Part shown: positions 16,776 to 32,646 of the stretch, piece by piece | Position numbering within the stretch: the stretch's first letter is position 1 | Layout: each line of letters starts with the position of its first letter | Source: Candidatus Nanoarchaeia archaeon | GTDB lineage: Archaea; Nanobdellota; Nanobdellia; Woesearchaeales; UBA10216 | Assembly (NCBI GenBank): GCA_028279045.1 | Contig: JANQSZ010000025.1 | Location: forward strand, 1-32,646 | Length of the DNA stretch: 32,646 bases | Direction of reading: 5' to 3' | The notes under the pieces: model-generated | What the model saw: only the letters and a program-made list of their open reading frames with translations | What the model was told of the DNA's origin: nothing | The model's database searches: none | Position numbers and translations under genes: made by a program

Positions 16776-17039
16776 TTACACTAATCGTTCGCCTGTATCT
16801 AGGTTTGTGACTTTGATGACTGTTACTGGGCAGCCTTTGGCTGCCTCTATTTCGTCAGTTAGCCGGGTTGGGTCATCAATGTCTAGAATGAGTTCAAATT
16901 GACCATTTCCAAGATCTTTTGCGTTGTTGAGGATCGCTTTTGAGTTATCGTCAAGCTCCCATGTGTCTGGGGCAACGGCCACGCAGACAGCGGCACCAAT
17001 GCAGTTGTCGTAGTCGTATTCTATCTTGATTTTCGTCAT
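16776..17039 (-). CDS. Ferredoxin of [3Fe-4S] type
   Basis: From ATG 17039 this gives 87 residues. The cluster motif is C13-I-G-A16-A-V-C19-V-A-V-A-P, followed by C70-P near the end (AAKGCPVTVI). Compared with four-cysteine ferredoxins the second cysteine is Ala, leaving three ligands (C13, C19, C70), as in [3Fe-4S] ferredoxins. It would carry single electrons in the cytoplasm. TTTAAATA (17062-17069) lies 26 nt before ATG 17039, which is why the longer start at 17093 was not used. It is divergent from the SUF operon regulator, so a link to iron-sulfur homeostasis is plausible. Confidence 0.85.
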   Translation of the reverse strand: MTKIKIEYDYDNCIGAAVCVAVAPDTWELDDNSKAILNNAKDLGNGQFELILDIDDPTRLTDEIEAAKGCPVTVIKVTNLDTGERLV

Positions 17040-17061
17040 GATCACTAGCTTCTGGTAGTTG

Positions 17062-17069
17062 TATTTAAA
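17062..17069 (-). promoter_or_regulatory. TATA box of ferredoxin gene
   Basis: TTTAAATA on the minus strand is centred 26 nt before ATG 17039. Confidence 0.6.
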
Positions 17070-17114
17070 CATTGCGCAGCATTTATTTTCCATATTGAAA
17101 TTAATTAGGCGATA

Positions 17115-17148: not shown

Positions 17149-17520
17149 ATGAAATCAGAGCTCGTTCAACCACAGGAGATCGAAGTGTACTACTTGCTGC
17201 CAGCTATCCGGAGCTACTTCGCACATACGCTGAAAGAGCAAGGAATGAGCCAAAAGGACATTGCGGCGAAGTTGCATATTCAGACTAGTACTGTATCGCA
17301 GTACTTGCATGAGAAGCGCGGCAAGCAAATCACGTTCCCTGATGAAATTGTGAAGGAAATCAAGGCGAGTGCTGGTAAGTTGAACGACAAAATGGATTTG
17401 GTACGGGAAACGCAACATATTCTTGCATTGCTACGGAAAACAAAAGTTCTGTGTCAAGTGCACAAGCAATTTGGTAATGTTCCTGATCAATGTAATATAG
17501 AAACAATGAAGTGTGCATAA
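17149..17520 (+). CDS. HTH regulator with C-terminal Cys/His site, probable SUF operon regulator
   Basis: The 123-residue protein has an XRE-like helix-turn-helix (about 34-58, SQKDIAAKLHIQTSTVSQYL) preceded by LLPAIRSYFAHTLKEQG. This is the layout of archaeal COG2522-type regulators. A helical linker leads to a C-terminal cluster C102-x2-H105-x9-C115-x6-C122, able to hold a metal or an Fe-S cluster. A perfect inverted repeat overlaps its own promoter, and the stop codon overlaps the sufB start by one base (TAATG). Together these suggest a repressor that senses iron-sulfur status and releases the suf genes. Sensing is inference; DNA binding is well supported. Confidence 0.82.
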   Translation: MKSELVQPQEIEVYYLLPAIRSYFAHTLKEQGMSQKDIAAKLHIQTSTVSQYLHEKRGKQITFPDEIVKEIKASAGKLNDKMDLVRETQHILALLRKTKVLCQVHKQFGNVPDQCNIETMKCA

Positions 17521-18923
17521 TGGCAAGTTCACAAGTAGAAATCACGCGAGATTTATTTGACAAGGCAGACAATGTAGAGAACGAACTGGAATCTGACCTT
17601 GGCATCAACGAAAAAGTTGTGCGATTGATTTCTAAACAAAAAAAAGAACCTTCCTGGATGCTTGACAAACGATTGGAAGCGCTTAACATTTTCAACAGCA
17701 AACCAATGCCAAAATGGGGCGCTGATCTTTCTTCATTTGATTTACAGAAAATTCGGTACTATATGAAACCGAACGCGAAACCGAATCAGAAAAACTGGGA
17801 AGACGTGCCGAAAGAAATTAAGGATACCTTCCAGAGACTTGGCATACCGGAAGCAGAACAGAAAGCGCTTGCAGGAGCTGGTGCGCAATACGAATCAGAA
17901 AACGTGTATCACAATCTCAAAGAAGAATGGCAAAAGCTTGGTGTTATTTTTGAAGACATGGATGTTGGGCTGCAAAAATACCCTGATATCGTCGAGAAAC
18001 ACTTCATGACCAATAACGTTCCATTGAATGATCACAAATTTGCAGCATTGCATGGAGCGGTTTGGAGCGGAGGAACGTTCTTGTACATTCCAAAAAATGT
18101 TAATGTCAAGTTTCCATTGCAAGCATATTTCCGAATGAACAAAGAGCAAGGCGGGCAGTTTGAGCATACGATGATTATTGTTGAAGATGGTGCGCAAGGC
18201 CACTACATCGAAGGGTGTTCTGCACCGCAGTATAATCAAAATTCACTTCATGCGGGATGTGTAGAAGTATTTGTTGGAGAAAACTCGCGGTTTAGGTACA
18301 GCAGTGTTGAAAACTGGAGCAGAAACACGTATAACTTGAACACGAAACGTGCACTTGTCAAGAAAAACGGCATCATGGAATGGGTCGGTGGCAACTTGGG
18401 AAGTGGGGTTACGATGTTGTACCCTTGCAGTATTTTGCTAGGAGAGAATTCCAAAGCAGACCACATCGGTATTGCGTATGCAGGAAAAGGACAAAATCAA
18501 GATACTGGAGCAAAGGTTATTCATGCTGCACCAGGAACGAGCAGCAGTATTGTGAGCAAGAGCATTTGCAAAGACGGCGGCATCACAACGTACCGTGGAT
18601 TGGTTATGGTGAATAAAGGTGCTGTCAATTCGAAAGTAAGTGCAGTATGTGATGCGCTTATTCTCGACGGAGAAAGCACGAATAATACTATTCCTTACAT
18701 GGATATCAAAGAAAAGAAGGTGCACATTGCTCACGAAGCAACGGTCGGTAAAATTAGCGAAGAAAACTTGTTTTACCTCATGAGCCGCGGAATGACTGAG
18801 CAAGATGCGTACAAGATGTTAGTTTCTGGTTTTATGGAACCAGTTATGAAAGAACTCCCCATCGAATACGCTGTTGAGATGAACAAACTCATCGAAATGG
18901 AGATGGAGGGGTCTGTCGGATAG
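17520..18923 (+). CDS. sufB: Fe-S cluster assembly protein SufB
   Basis: The 467-residue protein matches SufB throughout. An N-terminal helical part (KEPSWMLDKRLEAL) leads into the beta-helix with HGAVWSGGTFLYIPKNV, GAQGHYIEGCSAP, VENWSRNTYNLNTKRALV and MEWVGGNLGSG, then AVCDALILDGES with C377, at the position of the cysteine essential in bacterial SufB, and HIAHEATVGKISEENLFYLMSRG. SufB with SufC and SufD builds clusters using sulfur from the desulfurase. ATG 17520 was preferred to GTG 17511 because it overlaps the regulator stop. It is the first structural gene of the operon. Confidence 0.95.
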   Translation: MASSQVEITRDLFDKADNVENELESDLGINEKVVRLISKQKKEPSWMLDKRLEALNIFNSKPMPKWGADLSSFDLQKIRYYMKPNAKPNQKNWEDVPKEIKDTFQRLGIPEAEQKALAGAGAQYESENVYHNLKEEWQKLGVIFEDMDVGLQKYPDIVEKHFMTNNVPLNDHKFAALHGAVWSGGTFLYIPKNVNVKFPLQAYFRMNKEQGGQFEHTMIIVEDGAQGHYIEGCSAPQYNQNSLHAGCVEVFVGENSRFRYSSVENWSRNTYNLNTKRALVKKNGIMEWVGGNLGSGVTMLYPCSILLGENSKADHIGIAYAGKGQNQDTGAKVIHAAPGTSSSIVSKSICKDGGITTYRGLVMVNKGAVNSKVSAVCDALILDGESTNNTIPYMDIKEKKVHIAHEATVGKISEENLFYLMSRGMTEQDAYKMLVSGFMEPVMKELPIEYAVEMNKLIEMEMEGSVG

Positions 18924-18930
18924 TTCTACA

Positions 18931-20070
18931 ATGTATTTCGAAGAAGTCGCGCGGTATGCTGAAGAGTCAGAGCAATCTGAGAAACGATTGCAGTATTTGG
19001 AACTCGCAAAACAAGCAAAACCTCTACAAGTAGATCGACGGACAATCTTGAAACAATTCTTCAAAGAAGATGAACTACAACTTAATTTGGAAAAAGTAGA
19101 GCCTGTTATTTCTAATACGCCAGAAGGCATTATTGCAATGCCGCTTGGTGGTGCATGGAAGCAACACAAAGAACTCGTCGAGAAATACCTGTACAGCACG
19201 CTTGACGCACCAACAAAAATGGAAGCACTTGCAGCAGCAGGCTGGAACTCAGGCTTGTTTGTTTACATTCCTGATAATATGGAAGTAGATGTTCCTGTTG
19301 AGAGCATTGTGCAGCACGATGGATCAATTTTACAGTATACGCTGATCGTCGTTGGAGTGAATTCAGCAGTAAACATTGTTGAACGCACATCTGGCAACCC
19401 AAACTTCAGATCAGAAGTCGTGGAAATTATCGGACTTGATAATTCCCGCATTCGATACGCAAATGTACAGAACATTTCTACAAACTCAGTTAACTTTTCA
19501 TCAAAACGAGCGAAACTAGAACGCGACGCTTCCTTGGTGTGGTTTGATGGCAACGTCGGTAGTAAATTGACTGTTGCCCGCACAGCATCACAGTTGGTTG
19601 GAAACGGAAGTAATGTGAAATCACTTGGATTAATGTTCGGAGACGAATCGCAACACTATGACGTGAATGCAATTGCACAGCATATTGGTACTGATACGAG
19701 CGGAGACATGTTTGCCCGCGGCGTGTTGAAGGAACGTGCCAAAGCAGTGTTCCGCGGACTGATTAAAATTGAGAAAGAAGCGCACCGTACTGAGAGTACG
19801 CAAACAGAAAAAATGCTGCTGTTGAGCGGCGATGCAGAAGCAGATGCTATTCCTGAACTCATGATTGATAATAACGACGTGAAGTGTAGCCATGGAGCAA
19901 CCATTGGCGAGATTGCTGAAAGCGATATTTTCTACTTGAGAAGCCGTGGCATATCGGAAGAGGATGCCCGCGAACTGATTGTGAAAGGATTTCTGTCGTC
20001 AATAACAGATGAACTCGATATTGAAGGCGTGGAAGAATATATTCAAGAGATTGTGGTGCCGCGACTATGA
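18931..20070 (+). CDS. sufD: Fe-S cluster assembly protein SufD (SufB/D family)
   Basis: The 379-residue protein is a shorter SufB paralogue. It has the beta-helix core (LAAAGWNSGLFVYIPDNM, RIRYANVQNIS, LVWFDGNVGSKLT) and ends with DVKCSHGATIGEIAESDIFYLRSRG, where H321 matches the histidine needed for iron entry in bacterial SufD. It pairs with SufB on the SufC ATPase. The gene begins 7 nt after sufB and ends in an ATGA overlap with sufS. Confidence 0.93.
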   Translation: MYFEEVARYAEESEQSEKRLQYLELAKQAKPLQVDRRTILKQFFKEDELQLNLEKVEPVISNTPEGIIAMPLGGAWKQHKELVEKYLYSTLDAPTKMEALAAAGWNSGLFVYIPDNMEVDVPVESIVQHDGSILQYTLIVVGVNSAVNIVERTSGNPNFRSEVVEIIGLDNSRIRYANVQNISTNSVNFSSKRAKLERDASLVWFDGNVGSKLTVARTASQLVGNGSNVKSLGLMFGDESQHYDVNAIAQHIGTDTSGDMFARGVLKERAKAVFRGLIKIEKEAHRTESTQTEKMLLLSGDAEADAIPELMIDNNDVKCSHGATIGEIAESDIFYLRSRGISEEDARELIVKGFLSSITDELDIEGVEEYIQEIVVPRL

Positions 20071-21275
20071 ACGTTGATAAAATTCGTGCGGACTTTCCGA
20101 TCTTGCAGAGAAAAGTGAAAGGAAAACCACTCGTGTACTTTGATAACGCTGCAACATCTCAGAAACCCAAACAAGTTATTGATGCGATGCACGATTATTA
20201 TTTGAATTACAATGCGAACGTGCACCGTGGTGTACATCAATTAAGCGAGGAAGCGAGCCAAGCATATGAACAAGCACATGAAAAAGTTGGCAAGTTGATC
20301 AATGCAGAACTTGAAGAGACTGTTTTTACCAGAGGAACGACCGACTCAATCAACATGGTTGCTGCTGGACTGGCTAACACTGTTGAGGCGGGCGACGAAA
20401 TTGTTGTTACAGGCATGGAACATCACAGTAACCTAGTACCGTGGCAGCAAGTTGCAAAAATGAAGAATGCCGTACTTAAGGTTATTCCACTTACTGATGA
20501 TGGCAGAATTGAAGAGAGAGCAATTGCCGATACTGTTACCGGAAAAACCAAAATCGTTGCTGCTACACACATGAGCAACTCACTTGGAACAATTAACAAT
20601 GTTCAACTTATGTCGAAGATAGCACATGAGAACGATGCACTTACTGTTATCGACGGTGCTCAGAGCGTGCCACACTTTCCCGTAGACGTCAAGAAGCTTG
20701 ATGTTGACTTTCTTGCGTTCTCGGCCCACAAAATGCTGGGACCGACTGGAATTGGCGGACTGTATGGGAAGAAAAAACTGCTTGAAGAACTACACCCTGC
20801 ATCCTTTGGCGGAGGAATGATCCGAGAAGTAACAGAACAAGATGCAAGTTGGGCAGACCTACCATGGAAATTTGAAGCAGGAACGCCACCAATCGCAGCA
20901 GGTATTGGATTTGGTGCTGCTGCTGACTACTTGCTAAACATTGGAATGCAACACATTCATGATCACGAAAGGAAACTTACTATCAAAGCACTTGATGTGT
21001 TGAATAAAGATACTATCGATGTGTACGGACCTGCTGCAGATCATCGCGGTGGCGTGGTAACGTTTAACGTCAAAGGAGTGCATGCGCACGACGTCTCCTC
21101 GTTGTTGGATGATGAAGGCATCGCTGTCCGGGGCGGACACCACTGTAACATGCCGCTGATGAAAAAACTCGGCATACAAGGATCGGTGCGCGCAAGCTTC
21201 TATCTGTACAATACAGAAGAAGAACTTGATGTGCTGAACAATGCGTTAGGAAAAGTTGCGAAGGTGTTTTCATGA
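20067..21275 (+). CDS. sufS: Cysteine desulfurase SufS
   Basis: The 402-residue class V aminotransferase-fold enzyme has FDNAATSQKPKQVIDAM near the start, TDSINMVAAG, MEHHSNLVPW, the PLP lysine K222 in SAHKMLGPTG, and the catalytic cysteine C360 in RGGHHCNMPLM. The short loop around the cysteine marks the SufS type (group II). It takes sulfur from cysteine and, with SufU, supplies it to SufBCD. It overlaps sufD and sufU by 4 nt each (ATGA), so the three genes are translated in close coupling. Confidence 0.96.
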   Translation: MNVDKIRADFPILQRKVKGKPLVYFDNAATSQKPKQVIDAMHDYYLNYNANVHRGVHQLSEEASQAYEQAHEKVGKLINAELEETVFTRGTTDSINMVAAGLANTVEAGDEIVVTGMEHHSNLVPWQQVAKMKNAVLKVIPLTDDGRIEERAIADTVTGKTKIVAATHMSNSLGTINNVQLMSKIAHENDALTVIDGAQSVPHFPVDVKKLDVDFLAFSAHKMLGPTGIGGLYGKKKLLEELHPASFGGGMIREVTEQDASWADLPWKFEAGTPPIAAGIGFGAAADYLLNIGMQHIHDHERKLTIKALDVLNKDTIDVYGPAADHRGGVVTFNVKGVHAHDVSSLLDDEGIAVRGGHHCNMPLMKKLGIQGSVRASFYLYNTEEELDVLNNALGKVAKVFS

Positions 21276-21676
21276 TACCTGCAGACCAAGATGAACTGAA
21301 GAATGCAGGAATGTACCGAGACTTTATCTTGGATCACTACAAGAACCCGAGAAATTCAGGAACAATTGAGAATGCATTGCATAAACATGATTCCAACCCA
21401 CTTTGTGGGGATGAACTAGACGTGTACTTGAAAATTGAAGACGGAACAATTGTTGATATCAAATTCCAAGGGCACGGTTGTGCTATATCGCAGGCAAGCA
21501 TGAGCATGCTTACAGATCACATTAAAGGAAAAACAGTCGAGGACGTCATCAACATGGAAAAGAAAGAGATGCTAGACATGCTTGGCATAGAATTGAGCGT
21601 GTCACGCGTTAAGTGCGCGTTACTCGGCTTTCTAACAATCAAGAAGGGACTGGTGGAGCAACATGGCAATACTTGA
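21272..21676 (+). CDS. sufU: SufU sulfurtransferase/scaffold
   Basis: The 134-residue protein belongs to the IscU/SufU family. DFILDHYKNPRNSG is followed by C45 with D47 (NPLCGDEL), C70 (GHGCAISQAS) and C115 (RVKCALLG), the Zn or cluster ligands. SufU accepts persulfide from SufS through its zinc-bound cysteine. It overlaps sufS by ATGA and sufC by 14 nt. SufS with SufU is typical of Gram-positive bacteria, so presence in an archaeal operon may reflect old transfer. Confidence 0.93.
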   Translation: MIPADQDELKNAGMYRDFILDHYKNPRNSGTIENALHKHDSNPLCGDELDVYLKIEDGTIVDIKFQGHGCAISQASMSMLTDHIKGKTVEDVINMEKKEMLDMLGIELSVSRVKCALLGFLTIKKGLVEQHGNT

Positions 21677-22406
21677 AATAAAGAATTTGAAAGTAAATGT
21701 AGAAGACCAAGAAATACTGCGTGGAGTAAGCCTGCACGTTGACAAAGGAGAAATTGTTACAATCATGGGGCCAAACGGCTCTGGAAAAAGTACACTGGCT
21801 GCAACATTGATGGGACATCCTGCCTATGAGGTTATGGATGGAAACATTGTTTTCCAGGATGAAGACATTACTGAACTTTCTCCTGATAAGCGAGCGAAGA
21901 AAGGACTGTTTTTATCGTTTCAACACCCGCAAGAAATTAGCGGAGTATCGGTTGCTAACTTTTTGCGCACTGCTATTAATTCCATACGGGGAAAGGAAAA
22001 CGAAATACCGATTCCGGAATTCTTAAAGCAACTTAAAGAACATATGCAGAAACTGAACATGGATCAATCGTTTGCTAATAGGTATTTGAACGAAGGATTT
22101 AGCGGCGGAGAAAAGAAACGCACAGAAATTCTGCAACTTTCTATGTTGAAGCCAACGATTGCAATCTTGGATGAAACTGATTCTGGTACGGACGTTGATA
22201 CGCTCAAGTTGCTGGGCACTACGTTGAAGAATATAAGCGAAGTTGAAGGCACGGGCATGCTTGTTATCACACACTACAATCGCATTCTGCAATACTTGAA
22301 GCCTGATAGGATCTACATTATGATGGAAGGGAAGATCGTAGACGAGGGCGGTCCCGAACTGGCTGAACAGGTAGAAAAAGAAGGTTATGCTAAATATTCA
22401 GCGTAA
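21663..22406 (+). CDS. sufC: Fe-S assembly ATPase SufC
   Basis: The 247-residue ABC ATPase has Walker A GPNGSGKS (36-43), a Q-loop in LSFQHPQEISGVS, the signature FSGGEKKRTEI typical of SufC, Walker B AILDETDSGTD and the switch histidine in ITHYN. It drives conformational change in SufBD during cluster assembly. The start lies inside sufU with GGTGGAG upstream. As last gene of the operon its position differs from the bacterial order sufCDSUB or sufABCDSE. A T-run after the stop may end the transcript and also forms the next TATA box. Confidence 0.96.
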   Translation: MAILEIKNLKVNVEDQEILRGVSLHVDKGEIVTIMGPNGSGKSTLAATLMGHPAYEVMDGNIVFQDEDITELSPDKRAKKGLFLSFQHPQEISGVSVANFLRTAINSIRGKENEIPIPEFLKQLKEHMQKLNMDQSFANRYLNEGFSGGEKKRTEILQLSMLKPTIAILDETDSGTDVDTLKLLGTTLKNISEVEGTGMLVITHYNRILQYLKPDRIYIMMEGKIVDEGGPELAEQVEKEGYAKYSA

Positions 22407-22438: not shown

Positions 22439-23590
22439 GTGGTACACAGAGTAATTATTCTTGGCGGTGGCTTTGGAGGCGTATTAGCAGCAAAACGACT
22501 GTTAAAATCAGCGCCACGAGACACCACTATCCGTCTCATAAGTGAAACAGATACGTTTACGTTTAGCCCAAGATTAACAGAAGTCGTCTCTCAGTCGGTA
22601 CGACGCGATATTGTTATCAAACCGCTGCAAGCAATTTTTGGTGGACGCGTAGCATTTGTCAAAGGTAAAGCAGACAAAATTAATTTCGAAGACCGCGAAG
22701 TGGTTGTGGGAGATCGCGCGTATATTTATGACACATTATTGATCGCAACAGGAGCAAAACCAAACTTCTTTGGAATAGAATCTGTTAAGAAACATTGTAC
22801 GCCATTCAAAACATTTGACGATGCAGAAAAACTGCGTAGACAATTGCTGCACAACTTCAGCGATGGCCAGAAAACAGCAGACCCAAAGAAACGAAAATCT
22901 TTGCTGAGCGTTGCTGTTGTGGGAGCAGGACCAACAGGAGTTGAACTCATTCTCAACATTAAGAACTTGGTTGATGACATTGTTGAACGAGCACCAGAAC
23001 TCAAGGATGAAGTTCGGCTCGTGTTGTTGAACAGTGCGGACACTATTCTGCCGTTCATCGATGAACGCCAACGAAGAGATGCAGAAGATCGATTGGAGCA
23101 ACAAGGCATTGAAGTTTTTTGTAACAAGCGCGTTACCAAGGCAGATGAAGAATCACTGTACATGCAAGATAATACAAAAATCTTTGCAGCTGCCAAAATC
23201 TGGGCAGCAGGAGTACAACCTGTTGCTATCCCGACATACCCTACAATGGAACTTATTCACGGACGACTTCCTGTGGATAAATCATTGCAGGTTCGTGGAT
23301 TAAAAGGAGTGTTTGCTGTAGGAGACTGCGCCATTTATGACAACGAAGGAGAGCAACTTCCGCCAACTGCAATGGTAGCATTCCAGATGGGGGAACACGT
23401 TGCGAAAAATATTGCCAACCGTATTAACAAAATCCCAATCACGCCATTCGAATATGACCATAAAGGATACTTTTTACTTCTTGGTCACAACAATGCATCT
23501 GCAATTGTTAAGAATTACCACTTGAAAGGATATCCAGCTGCACGAATGCGTGACGTAGTGTATAGATTCAGATTCAAACAAATGACTTAG
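22439..23590 (+). CDS. NDH-2-like FAD/NAD(P)H oxidoreductase
   Basis: The 383-residue protein has two dinucleotide-binding folds: VIILGGGFGGVLAAKRLL at the N-terminus for FAD and SVAVVGAGPTGVEL mid-protein for NAD(P)H. GVFAVGDCAIYD near residue 300 binds the flavin, and PTAMVAFQMGEHVAKNI follows. This is the type II NADH dehydrogenase layout, a membrane-peripheral enzyme that passes electrons from NADH to quinone. Other flavoproteins of similar fold cannot be excluded. It is followed 8 nt later by a DoxX gene, so the two probably work together at the membrane. Confidence 0.87.
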   Translation: MVHRVIILGGGFGGVLAAKRLLKSAPRDTTIRLISETDTFTFSPRLTEVVSQSVRRDIVIKPLQAIFGGRVAFVKGKADKINFEDREVVVGDRAYIYDTLLIATGAKPNFFGIESVKKHCTPFKTFDDAEKLRRQLLHNFSDGQKTADPKKRKSLLSVAVVGAGPTGVELILNIKNLVDDIVERAPELKDEVRLVLLNSADTILPFIDERQRRDAEDRLEQQGIEVFCNKRVTKADEESLYMQDNTKIFAAAKIWAAGVQPVAIPTYPTMELIHGRLPVDKSLQVRGLKGVFAVGDCAIYDNEGEQLPPTAMVAFQMGEHVAKNIANRINKIPITPFEYDHKGYFLLLGHNNASAIVKNYHLKGYPAARMRDVVYRFRFKQMT

Positions 23591-23598
23591 GGGGCAAA

Positions 23599-24081
23599 AT
23601 GACAGAACTACTAACAAAATTTGGTAATTACAAATCATGGGCGCCTTTTATTTTAAGAGTTACGCTCGGAATACTAATGATGGCACACGGCGCAGGAAAA
23701 TTATTCGGCGCTAATGCAAGCTTTCTTACACAACTGGGAATCCCAGAACAATTTCTCTCTGGCATAGCAGGATTTGCAGGATGGATTGGAACACCTGTTG
23801 CAGACGGCGGACTTGGATTGCCAGCAGCATTCTTCTTTGCCTGGCTTGTTGCACTGCTCGAATTCGGCGGAGGACTTGCGCTTATCCTTGGATTATTCAC
23901 AAGACTTGGAGCACTCCTACTTAGCCTGCAGTTCTTCATCATTATTGTCTACGTTAAAATTATTGTTGGCAATGGATGGGAAGTTGACCTGCCGTACCTT
24001 GGTGGACTAGTTGCAATATTGCTTCTTGGACCAGGACCATACTCGTTAGAACGAAAAATCTTCGGTAAAGTGCGCTTCTAA
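23599..24081 (+). CDS. DoxX family membrane protein
   Basis: The 160-residue protein has four hydrophobic helices (about 15-34, 70-97, 96-125, 130-150) with the family features LRVTLGILMMAHGAGKLFG near the start and LEFGGGLALILGLFTRLGALLLSLQF in the middle. DoxX proteins act in membrane redox or sulfur-related processes and often sit with oxidoreductases. GGGGGC (23590-23595) is the ribosome site. The 3' end overlaps the convergent VKOR gene by 4 bp. Confidence 0.87.
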   Translation: MTELLTKFGNYKSWAPFILRVTLGILMMAHGAGKLFGANASFLTQLGIPEQFLSGIAGFAGWIGTPVADGGLGLPAAFFFAWLVALLEFGGGLALILGLFTRLGALLLSLQFFIIIVYVKIIVGNGWEVDLPYLGGLVAILLLGPGPYSLERKIFGKVRF

Positions 24082-24431
24082 AACAGGAGCGCAATATTTA
24101 CCACGTAGATTGCCGTGCATACAAGGCAGAATGTTCTTAATTTGAATTGAAGTAGCGAAAGATATGCAGAAGCAGCTACTGCAGGAATAGCAAGAAGGCG
24201 TACAAATCCATCTAACTCTAAAAAAGAAAGAAGAAGCACTACGCTATAAAACGCAATGCCCAGCAACGCATTTGGAACGCCCAAAAGCCTGCCGTACTTA
24301 CTGGAAAATACTTTGCTGCAGGAGATTGTGCTGTTGATGTCGCACAACGCCTTGAACTGCTTGTTCTTCGCATTGCGTTCTACGTAGTATGCGTACGCAG
24401 AAAGTAGCAACCCCGCTGCAGGTATAATCAT
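24078..24431 (-). CDS. Vitamin K epoxide reductase-like (VKOR) thiol oxidase
   Basis: The 117-residue membrane protein has four hydrophobic segments. The cysteine pair C30 and C38 lies in the loop ALCDINSTISCSKVF, with the Ser/Gly-rich turn SSKYGRLLGVPNALLG, and the CxxC active site C102-L-V-C105 is near the end. This is the VKOR pattern, with the loop cysteines relaying electrons from a partner to C102/C105 and then to quinone. In archaea VKOR re-oxidises partners that make disulfides outside the membrane. No fused thioredoxin domain is present. It starts with ATGA overlap in the end of the channel gene upstream. Confidence 0.9.
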   Translation of the reverse strand: MIIPAAGLLLSAYAYYVERNAKNKQFKALCDINSTISCSKVFSSKYGRLLGVPNALLGIAFYSVVLLLSFLELDGFVRLLAIPAVAASAYLSLLQFKLRTFCLVCTAIYVVNIALLF

Positions 24432-32292: not shown

Positions 32293-32646
32293 ATGAAACG
32301 AATCGCGGTGATTGACAAGGAAAAATGCAACCCAGTGAGTTGTGGAGACTTTCTCTGTATACGAGTTAGTCCAGGCAACAGAATGGGCAATGAAGTATTT
32401 GTGAAAGGGCCTGATGGGAAAGCACAGGTCAATGAAGAAGTATGCACAGATGCTGAAATGATCACTGCGAAGAAATGTCCGTTCGGTGCCATTCATATGG
32501 TGAAATTGCCGGAGAAACTTACGAGCCAACCGGTACATCGTTATGGTAAAGATGGTTTCATGCTGTATTCATTACCGATTCCGATGTTCGGCCAAGTCGT
32601 TGGTATTATTGGGAGGAATGGTATTGGAAAAAGCACTGCACTGAAA
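32293..32646 (+). CDS. ABCE1/RLI ribosome-recycling ATPase, 3' end outside window
   Basis: The 118 visible residues start MKRIAVIDKEKCNPVSC. The ferredoxin-like domain is C12-x4-C17-x4-C22-x3-S26-P, then C51, and C62 in AKKCPFGAIHMVKLP. HRYGKDGFMLYSLPIPMFGQVVGIIGRNGIGKST follows, the first ABC Walker A. This is ABCE1, which splits ribosomes after termination. In the normal protein both motifs carry four cysteines. Here S26, A54 and the T58 region replace three of them, all belonging to one cluster. The rest is beyond the window. A TATA box is 27 nt upstream. Confidence 0.93.
   Translation, partial: MKRIAVIDKEKCNPVSCGDFLCIRVSPGNRMGNEVFVKGPDGKAQVNEEVCTDAEMITAKKCPFGAIHMVKLPEKLTSQPVHRYGKDGFMLYSLPIPMFGQVVGIIGRNGIGKSTALK

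Follow-up and report, generated by a model that had tools for sequence, protein, structure and literature searches.

The DNA analysed here (the window, the whole stretch of 32,646 nucleotides), which is one entire contig (C24) of a 31-contig, 1.02 Mb genome, ends in a gene for ABCE1 (Rli1/aABCE1) whose product belongs to this protein in ancestry and domain layout and is a one-cluster form of it. Three of the eight cysteines of its N-terminal Fe-S domain are missing, all from one of the two cluster sites; the pattern is conserved in the window's clade, recurs in other families and is mirrored by families that have lost the opposite site. Across the order, one cluster site is gone in about four in ten relatives, either one, never both, and single-cluster ABCE1 is a recurrent trait of many families, extending to one or more further orders of the class. 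Probably, the gene encodes a functional, single-copy ABCE1 in which the cluster held by the fourth to seventh cysteines has been lost and that on the first, second, third and eighth kept, protein packing taking the place of the former, with ribosome splitting retained.

The ABCE1 gene of the window and its cysteines

The N-terminal part of the gene lies at positions 32293..32646 of the forward strand (Fe-S domain residues 1-76, then the start of NBD1 with the Walker A motif GRNGIGKST) and is open at the contig end. Its translation (MKRIAVIDKEKCNPVSCGDFLCIRVSPGNRMG...NEEVCTDAEMITAKKCPFGAI...) has cysteines at residues 12, 17, 22, 51 and 62; it scores above the cut-off of Pfam Fer4_RLI, the RLI-type N-terminal Fe-S domain, matches to Pfam Fer4 and ABC_tran are partial and below their cut-offs, and NCBIfam PRK13409 (RLI; NF009945) covers residues 1-118 (profile positions 1-117). 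The remaining 459 aa of the protein are found on contig C31 (3298 bases), in a reverse-strand frame that starts at the contig edge and runs from 3298 to 1922, open to its stop; the gene is thus not truncated but interrupted by an assembly gap. This second part carries the NBD1 signature, NBD2 and the C-terminal hinge (SGGELQR twice, DEPTS/DEPSA, VVDHD twice), and with it the two fused ABC ATPase domains of an ABCE1, each with signature, Walker B DEP and H-loop. With ABCE1/Rli1 of Pyrococcus abyssi (3bk7) and yeast, the window protein shares the Fe-S domain-NBD1-NBD2 order, the Walker A, signature and hinge residues, the ABCE1-type cysteine motif and, judging from a predicted structure of its one-cluster relative L237, the overall fold (best match the complete ABCE1 3bk7, TM 0.91); it differs from them in lacking C4, C6 and C7 and in a second motif longer by one residue.

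In this numbering, C1-C8 are the ABCE1 cysteines placed against P. abyssi ABCE1. The ABCE1-type cluster motif (C1, C2, C3 and C8) is complete in C12 (C1, 32326..32328), C17 (C2, 32341..32343), C22 (C3, 32356..32358) and C62 (C8, 32476..32478), all on the forward strand and all placed from the sequence together with the order-wide census, for C12 its C1 column. In the ferredoxin-like site, on the same strand, the C4 ligand is replaced by S26 (codon AGT, 32368..32370), C51 (C5, 32443..32445) is the last remaining ligand, and TDAEMITAKK (32446..32475) stands in place of xGCGxCxxx, without C6 and C7 and with one residue inserted (C-x10-C instead of the usual C-x9-C), as seen in the alignment and in the predicted structure of L237. 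The protein thus has five of the eight cysteines that two [4Fe-4S] clusters call for. The sequence-only reading had described these cysteines and their replacements, and its description is exact in the open reading frame, the inserted residue of the second motif being a small addition to it; the alignment of the eight cysteine columns also upholds its claim that the loss is limited to one cluster and leaves the ligands of cluster I intact. The underlying assignment, C1, C2, C3 and C8 to one cluster and C4-C7 to the other, had likewise been proposed there; it is the one reportedly established in the original papers on the cysteine assignment and the structure (Barthelme 2007, Karcher 2008), and it also rests on the cysteines lost together across the families studied here. 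As the losses in the order track the two known clusters exactly, the ligand assignment is confirmed independently of a structure.

A gene at a contig end invites the suspicion of a sequencing or assembly error, or of a second, normal ABCE1 gene elsewhere. This explanation is refuted and keeps next to no probability: the identical cysteine pattern occurs in 13 other species genomes from independent assemblies, and the genome holds a single N-domain and a single NBD part, so that ABCE1 is single-copy.

In AlphaFold models of the close, complete one-cluster relative L237 (JACPMZ010000003) and of an eight-cysteine control, L275 (mean pLDDT 88 and 89, respectively), the ferredoxin-like beta-alpha-beta arrangement is retained, and the stretch replacing CxxCxxC is predicted to form a nine-residue helix (53-61) in L237, compared with a loop and a five-residue helix (56-60) in L275. 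In solved structures the Fe-S domain of ABCE1 is located between h44, h5-h15 and uS12 (PMC7196836). In the mechanism that we propose, the ferredoxin-like [4Fe-4S] cluster would have been lost and the ABCE1-type cluster retained, the lobe of the lost cluster being secured by protein packing, with a serine at C4 and a helix over the former CxxCxxC loop, and the Fe-S domain would still swing on NBD1 to split ribosomes, while other families of the order would have taken the reverse path. On this view splitting would persist since the clusters act chiefly as structural staples, and a single one may suffice for the rigidity of the domain.

Conservation and selection in the window's clade

Another 13 species genomes of the window's family (f1), spread over genera g3, g5, g6 and g10, have the same serine at C4, lack C6 and C7 and bear the insertion in the second motif; those records that carry a name are MAGs assigned to Candidatus Woesearchaeota and obtained in several studies. 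Throughout the clade the key positions are alike letter for letter, C12, C17, C22, S26, C51, T52, D53, A54, E55, T58 and C62 being invariant (serine at C4 in 14/14 members), and in a set of 44 sequences C1, C2, C3 and C8 do not vary, nor do the Walker, signature and H-loop residues. Comparison between genera of the clade gives about 82% identity for the N-domain and about 60% for the ATPase part, with differences at 4-fold degenerate sites of 0.75 and 0.69, respectively, both saturated; these sites were used since dS (Bio.codonalign) is saturated for pairs involving the window. In the intact, two-cluster lineages no comparable gap is seen (conservation of 0.61 for the N-domain against 0.57 for the NBDs). 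A domain more conserved than the NBDs at equal saturation of silent sites points to stronger amino-acid constraint after the loss, and not to decay.

Decay of a dispensable domain could be imagined in view of the reduced genomes of DPANN archaea and of the many genomes of the class in which ABCE1 is undetectable. It is nevertheless very improbable, as the N-domain is conserved above the ATPase domains, dN/dS is about 0.04 in the clade where dS is measurable, the other cluster keeps its ligands throughout, and no scattered mixed losses occur among the 42 N-domains of the window type in the order; the earlier suggestion of selection instead of decay is thereby borne out. As to the absence of ABCE1 elsewhere in the class, an NBD query found it in none of 50 class-level genomes (families f106, f95, f103 and f116 among others; G371, G438, G429, G435, G391, G359, G375, G379 and others), and a recheck of a sample of these with NF009945 returned only other ABC ATPases, below 105 bits, the model scoring above its cut-off in G360 of the same class and in 4/14 control genomes. 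Some of the ABCE1-negative genomes consist of a single contig, and a large part of the class may recycle ribosomes without ABCE1.

The retention of C51 in 14/14 members is unexplained by pure loss of the site and counts against the preferred explanation. C5 is likewise kept in the type found in families f25, f59 and f83, despite its missing cluster partners. It might be thought that the second site holds an altered cluster, for instance a labile or [2Fe-2S]/[3Fe-4S] centre, bound through C51 and the non-cysteine ligands S26, D53 and E55. The invariance of S26, C51, D53, A54 and E55 in all 14 members is in keeping with this, as is the existence of forms (clade B of f1, f58, f60 and f91) in which only C5 is gone, C4, C6 and C7 are kept and the loop bears an aspartate (TDAC/NDAC), forms that could carry a three-cysteine cluster. 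Such a centre is nonetheless improbable, given that only one of the four cysteines is left, that families with the same loss (f41, f21, f2, f53 and f88) have no cysteine at any of C4-C7 and a similar loop (ITDGDRIAANKCP), and that the loop is predicted to be helical. Loss of the ferredoxin-like cluster, with its place filled by protein, remains the preferred reading.

Reciprocal losses across the order

The census, assembled from loci matched in genome searches and from retrieved sequence stretches, draws on 353 species genomes of the window's Woesearchaeota order and comprises 222 ABCE1 sequences, of which 218 include the N-domain. All eight cysteines are present in 114/218 N-domains, including nine with C2 displaced by one residue; a loss of C2 to D or S in these nine genomes was considered and rejected in favour of the one-residue shift (KCKGGSDCPYYC), and they are scored as intact. 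In 42/218, C4, C6 and C7 are gone, C5 is present in some and absent in others, and the full set of C1, C2, C3 and C8 remains; the reverse loss, that of C1-C3, is found in 53/218 (C8 also gone in 52; C4-C7 complete in 52, one lacking C5); only C5 or C6 is gone in seven and only C2 in two. None of the 218 N-domains has lost both sites. A both-lost class was further sought among the genomes without a match, where each ABCE1 present either belonged to the cluster-I-lost type or was interrupted by a contig end, the remaining genomes lacking ABCE1.

The loss of the window type occurs in f1 (the window's family), f41, f21, f88, f2, f53, f25 (g59, g64), f58 (one genome), f59 and f83 (one genome), and the reverse loss in f10, f50, f15, f63, f37 and about a dozen further families. 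In another order of the class (f90, f92 and f94; L339, L340, L342, L343 and L349) the window-type loss recurs with an aspartate at C4 (KYDP) and with C1, C2, C3 and C8 kept; L349 retains C7 (HKICAKKCP). In reverse-loss loci L072-L076, L078-L082, L087-L116 and others, the C1-C3 segment has turned charged and helix-like (KLKDMQQKLHIQSICPVNR). A graded state with the one-residue insertion in motif 2 (TDAC/NDAC) is observed in L015, L017, L018, L021, L042, L043, L053, L249-L251, L253, L298 and L319-L321, where C4, C6 and C7 remain and C5 is replaced by A, S or V, except in L015, which has C5; these loci possibly carry a three-cysteine or Asp-ligated cluster. In G280 C6 alone is missing, the position of the one cysteine that is reportedly dispensable in yeast. 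Two archaeal ABCE1 genes (L272 and L286) sit on contigs recorded as bacterial (Aminicenantes, Omnitrophota), probably through mislabelling.

The sequence-only reading had held that the window protein would bear on which cluster matters. The case itself is real, and one cluster site has indeed been lost; with 53 genomes of the order showing the opposite loss, the question has no single answer, and an interpretation that is right for the window protein is too narrow for the order, where either cluster is dispensable.

On a tree of the NBDs only, loss of the ferredoxin-like site amounts to 9-10 changes, at least 8 of them forced by well-supported branches, and the reverse loss to about 18; these are counts of state changes and not of proven independent losses, some having come about through N-domain transfer, clear in one genus. 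Drawn from N-domain sequence alone, the origins of the window-type loss would number at least four (f1; f41/f21/f88/f2/f53; f25/f59/f83; f58) and those of the reverse loss at least three. The genus in question belongs to f37, in which the N-domains of G284 and G287 (L109 and L113) are 95% identical to each other and about 53% to those of their siblings, with NBDs about 80% identical to all; the silent sites of the pair are also less diverged in the N-domain (0.28 against 0.58). A foreign N-domain joined to genus-typical NBDs indicates that the N-domain has moved by recombination, and independent loss in place in every case is rejected for f37.

This raises the question as to whether the one-cluster N-domain of the window was itself imported from another lineage instead of losing its cluster in place. 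The swap in f37 provides a clear example of such a process, and in the NBD tree clade B of f1, whose members lack C5 or have the full set of cysteines and share the one-residue insertion, falls within the one-cluster group, the support being mixed, which means either that the loss occurred twice or that N-domains were exchanged. Import into the window's clade is a minority possibility, since silent sites there are as saturated in the N-domain as in the NBDs (0.75 and 0.69), which speaks against a recent exchange; it would in any case alter the history of the protein only, and not its nature.

Fe-S supply, yeast precedent and meaning

The window contig carries a complete set of SUF-type Fe-S assembly genes (17511..22406, forward strand; profile matches SUFBD_core twice, Aminotran_5, NifU_N and ABC_tran), namely SufB (17511-18923, SUFBD_core), SufD (18931-20070, SUFBD_core), a SufS-like cysteine desulfurase (20067-21275, Aminotran_5), a NifU/IscU-like scaffold (21272-21676, NifU_N) and a SufC-like ATPase (21663-22406, ABC_tran), so that the organism is able to make Fe-S clusters. 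Four-cysteine sites can bind zinc, and the remaining cysteines might hold that metal, or nothing, in what would be an Fe-S domain no more; with the ABCE1-type motif CxPxxCxxxxC...CP intact and invariant and the SUF operon on the same contig, this is very improbable, and the C1, C2, C3 and C8 site presumably still holds a [4Fe-4S] cluster. Missing Fe-S assembly as the cause of cluster loss is rejected as well: among 80 genomes, SufB/D is present in 37/49 of the single-cluster and 14/31 of the two-cluster ones (Fisher p 0.009, uncorrected for kinship). A small single-cluster ferredoxin (Fer4_15; 16776-17093, reverse strand), whose cluster motif CIGAAVC...C has three cysteines, lies just upstream of the operon. 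Three genes next to one another encode a pyridine nucleotide-disulphide oxidoreductase (22439-23590, +), a DoxX family protein (23599-24081, +) and a VKOR family protein (24078-24431, -), perhaps with redox or oxygen-related functions relevant to an anaerobic explanation. In four other genomes (contigs G012:C10, G042:C12, G064:C9 and G307:C12) the open SufB frames are 733-1267 aa long and match the SUFBD core in two separate segments, inteins being the probable cause.

Some two-[4Fe-4S] ferredoxins have also lost one cluster in evolution, with the fold retained and the site replaced by protein; these are electron carriers, whereas the ABCE1 domain acts on the ribosome as a mechanical lever and shows both kinds of loss within one order. 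The closest parallel in ABCE1 itself is engineered: yeast Rli1 bearing C25S or C61S, which affect different clusters, supports growth without oxygen and none in air, and the double mutant does not grow (PMC4523923). That no lineage seen in the order has lost both sites agrees with this rule of tolerated single and lethal double damage. Unlike the archaeal proteins, in which an entire site has been replaced and the replacement fixed by evolution, the yeast mutants are altered in single ligands of a site that is otherwise present and that, as their authors suggest, may still bind a cluster (PMC4523923). Their failure in air, and the fact that they are not clean one-cluster proteins, count against the preferred explanation, as does the possibility that the absence of both-lost lineages is due to chance; the probability that every later event spared the lineages with a single cluster, estimated from the proportion of branch length that such states occupy, is about 0.04, which makes this absence by itself suggestive. 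The archaea studied here are assumed to live with little oxygen, and ribosome splitting by the window protein is presumed to have been kept.

ABCE1 was formerly thought to require two Fe-S clusters everywhere, and the literature searched, which mostly excluded subscription journals, contains no description of such single-cluster forms. The best reading is that the clusters are partly redundant structural staples, either of which can be replaced by protein; we lean slightly towards the fuller proposal that at least one must stay and that both kinds of loss became fixed on many occasions (about 9 and about 18 state changes within a single archaeal order). If this is true, the rule that both clusters are essential would be limited to lineages living with oxygen. 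The natural series of both single-cluster forms and their intermediates offers ready proteins with which to test a redox, an oxygen-sensing or a purely structural role of the clusters, and to identify the lobe that powers the domain's swing on the small subunit.
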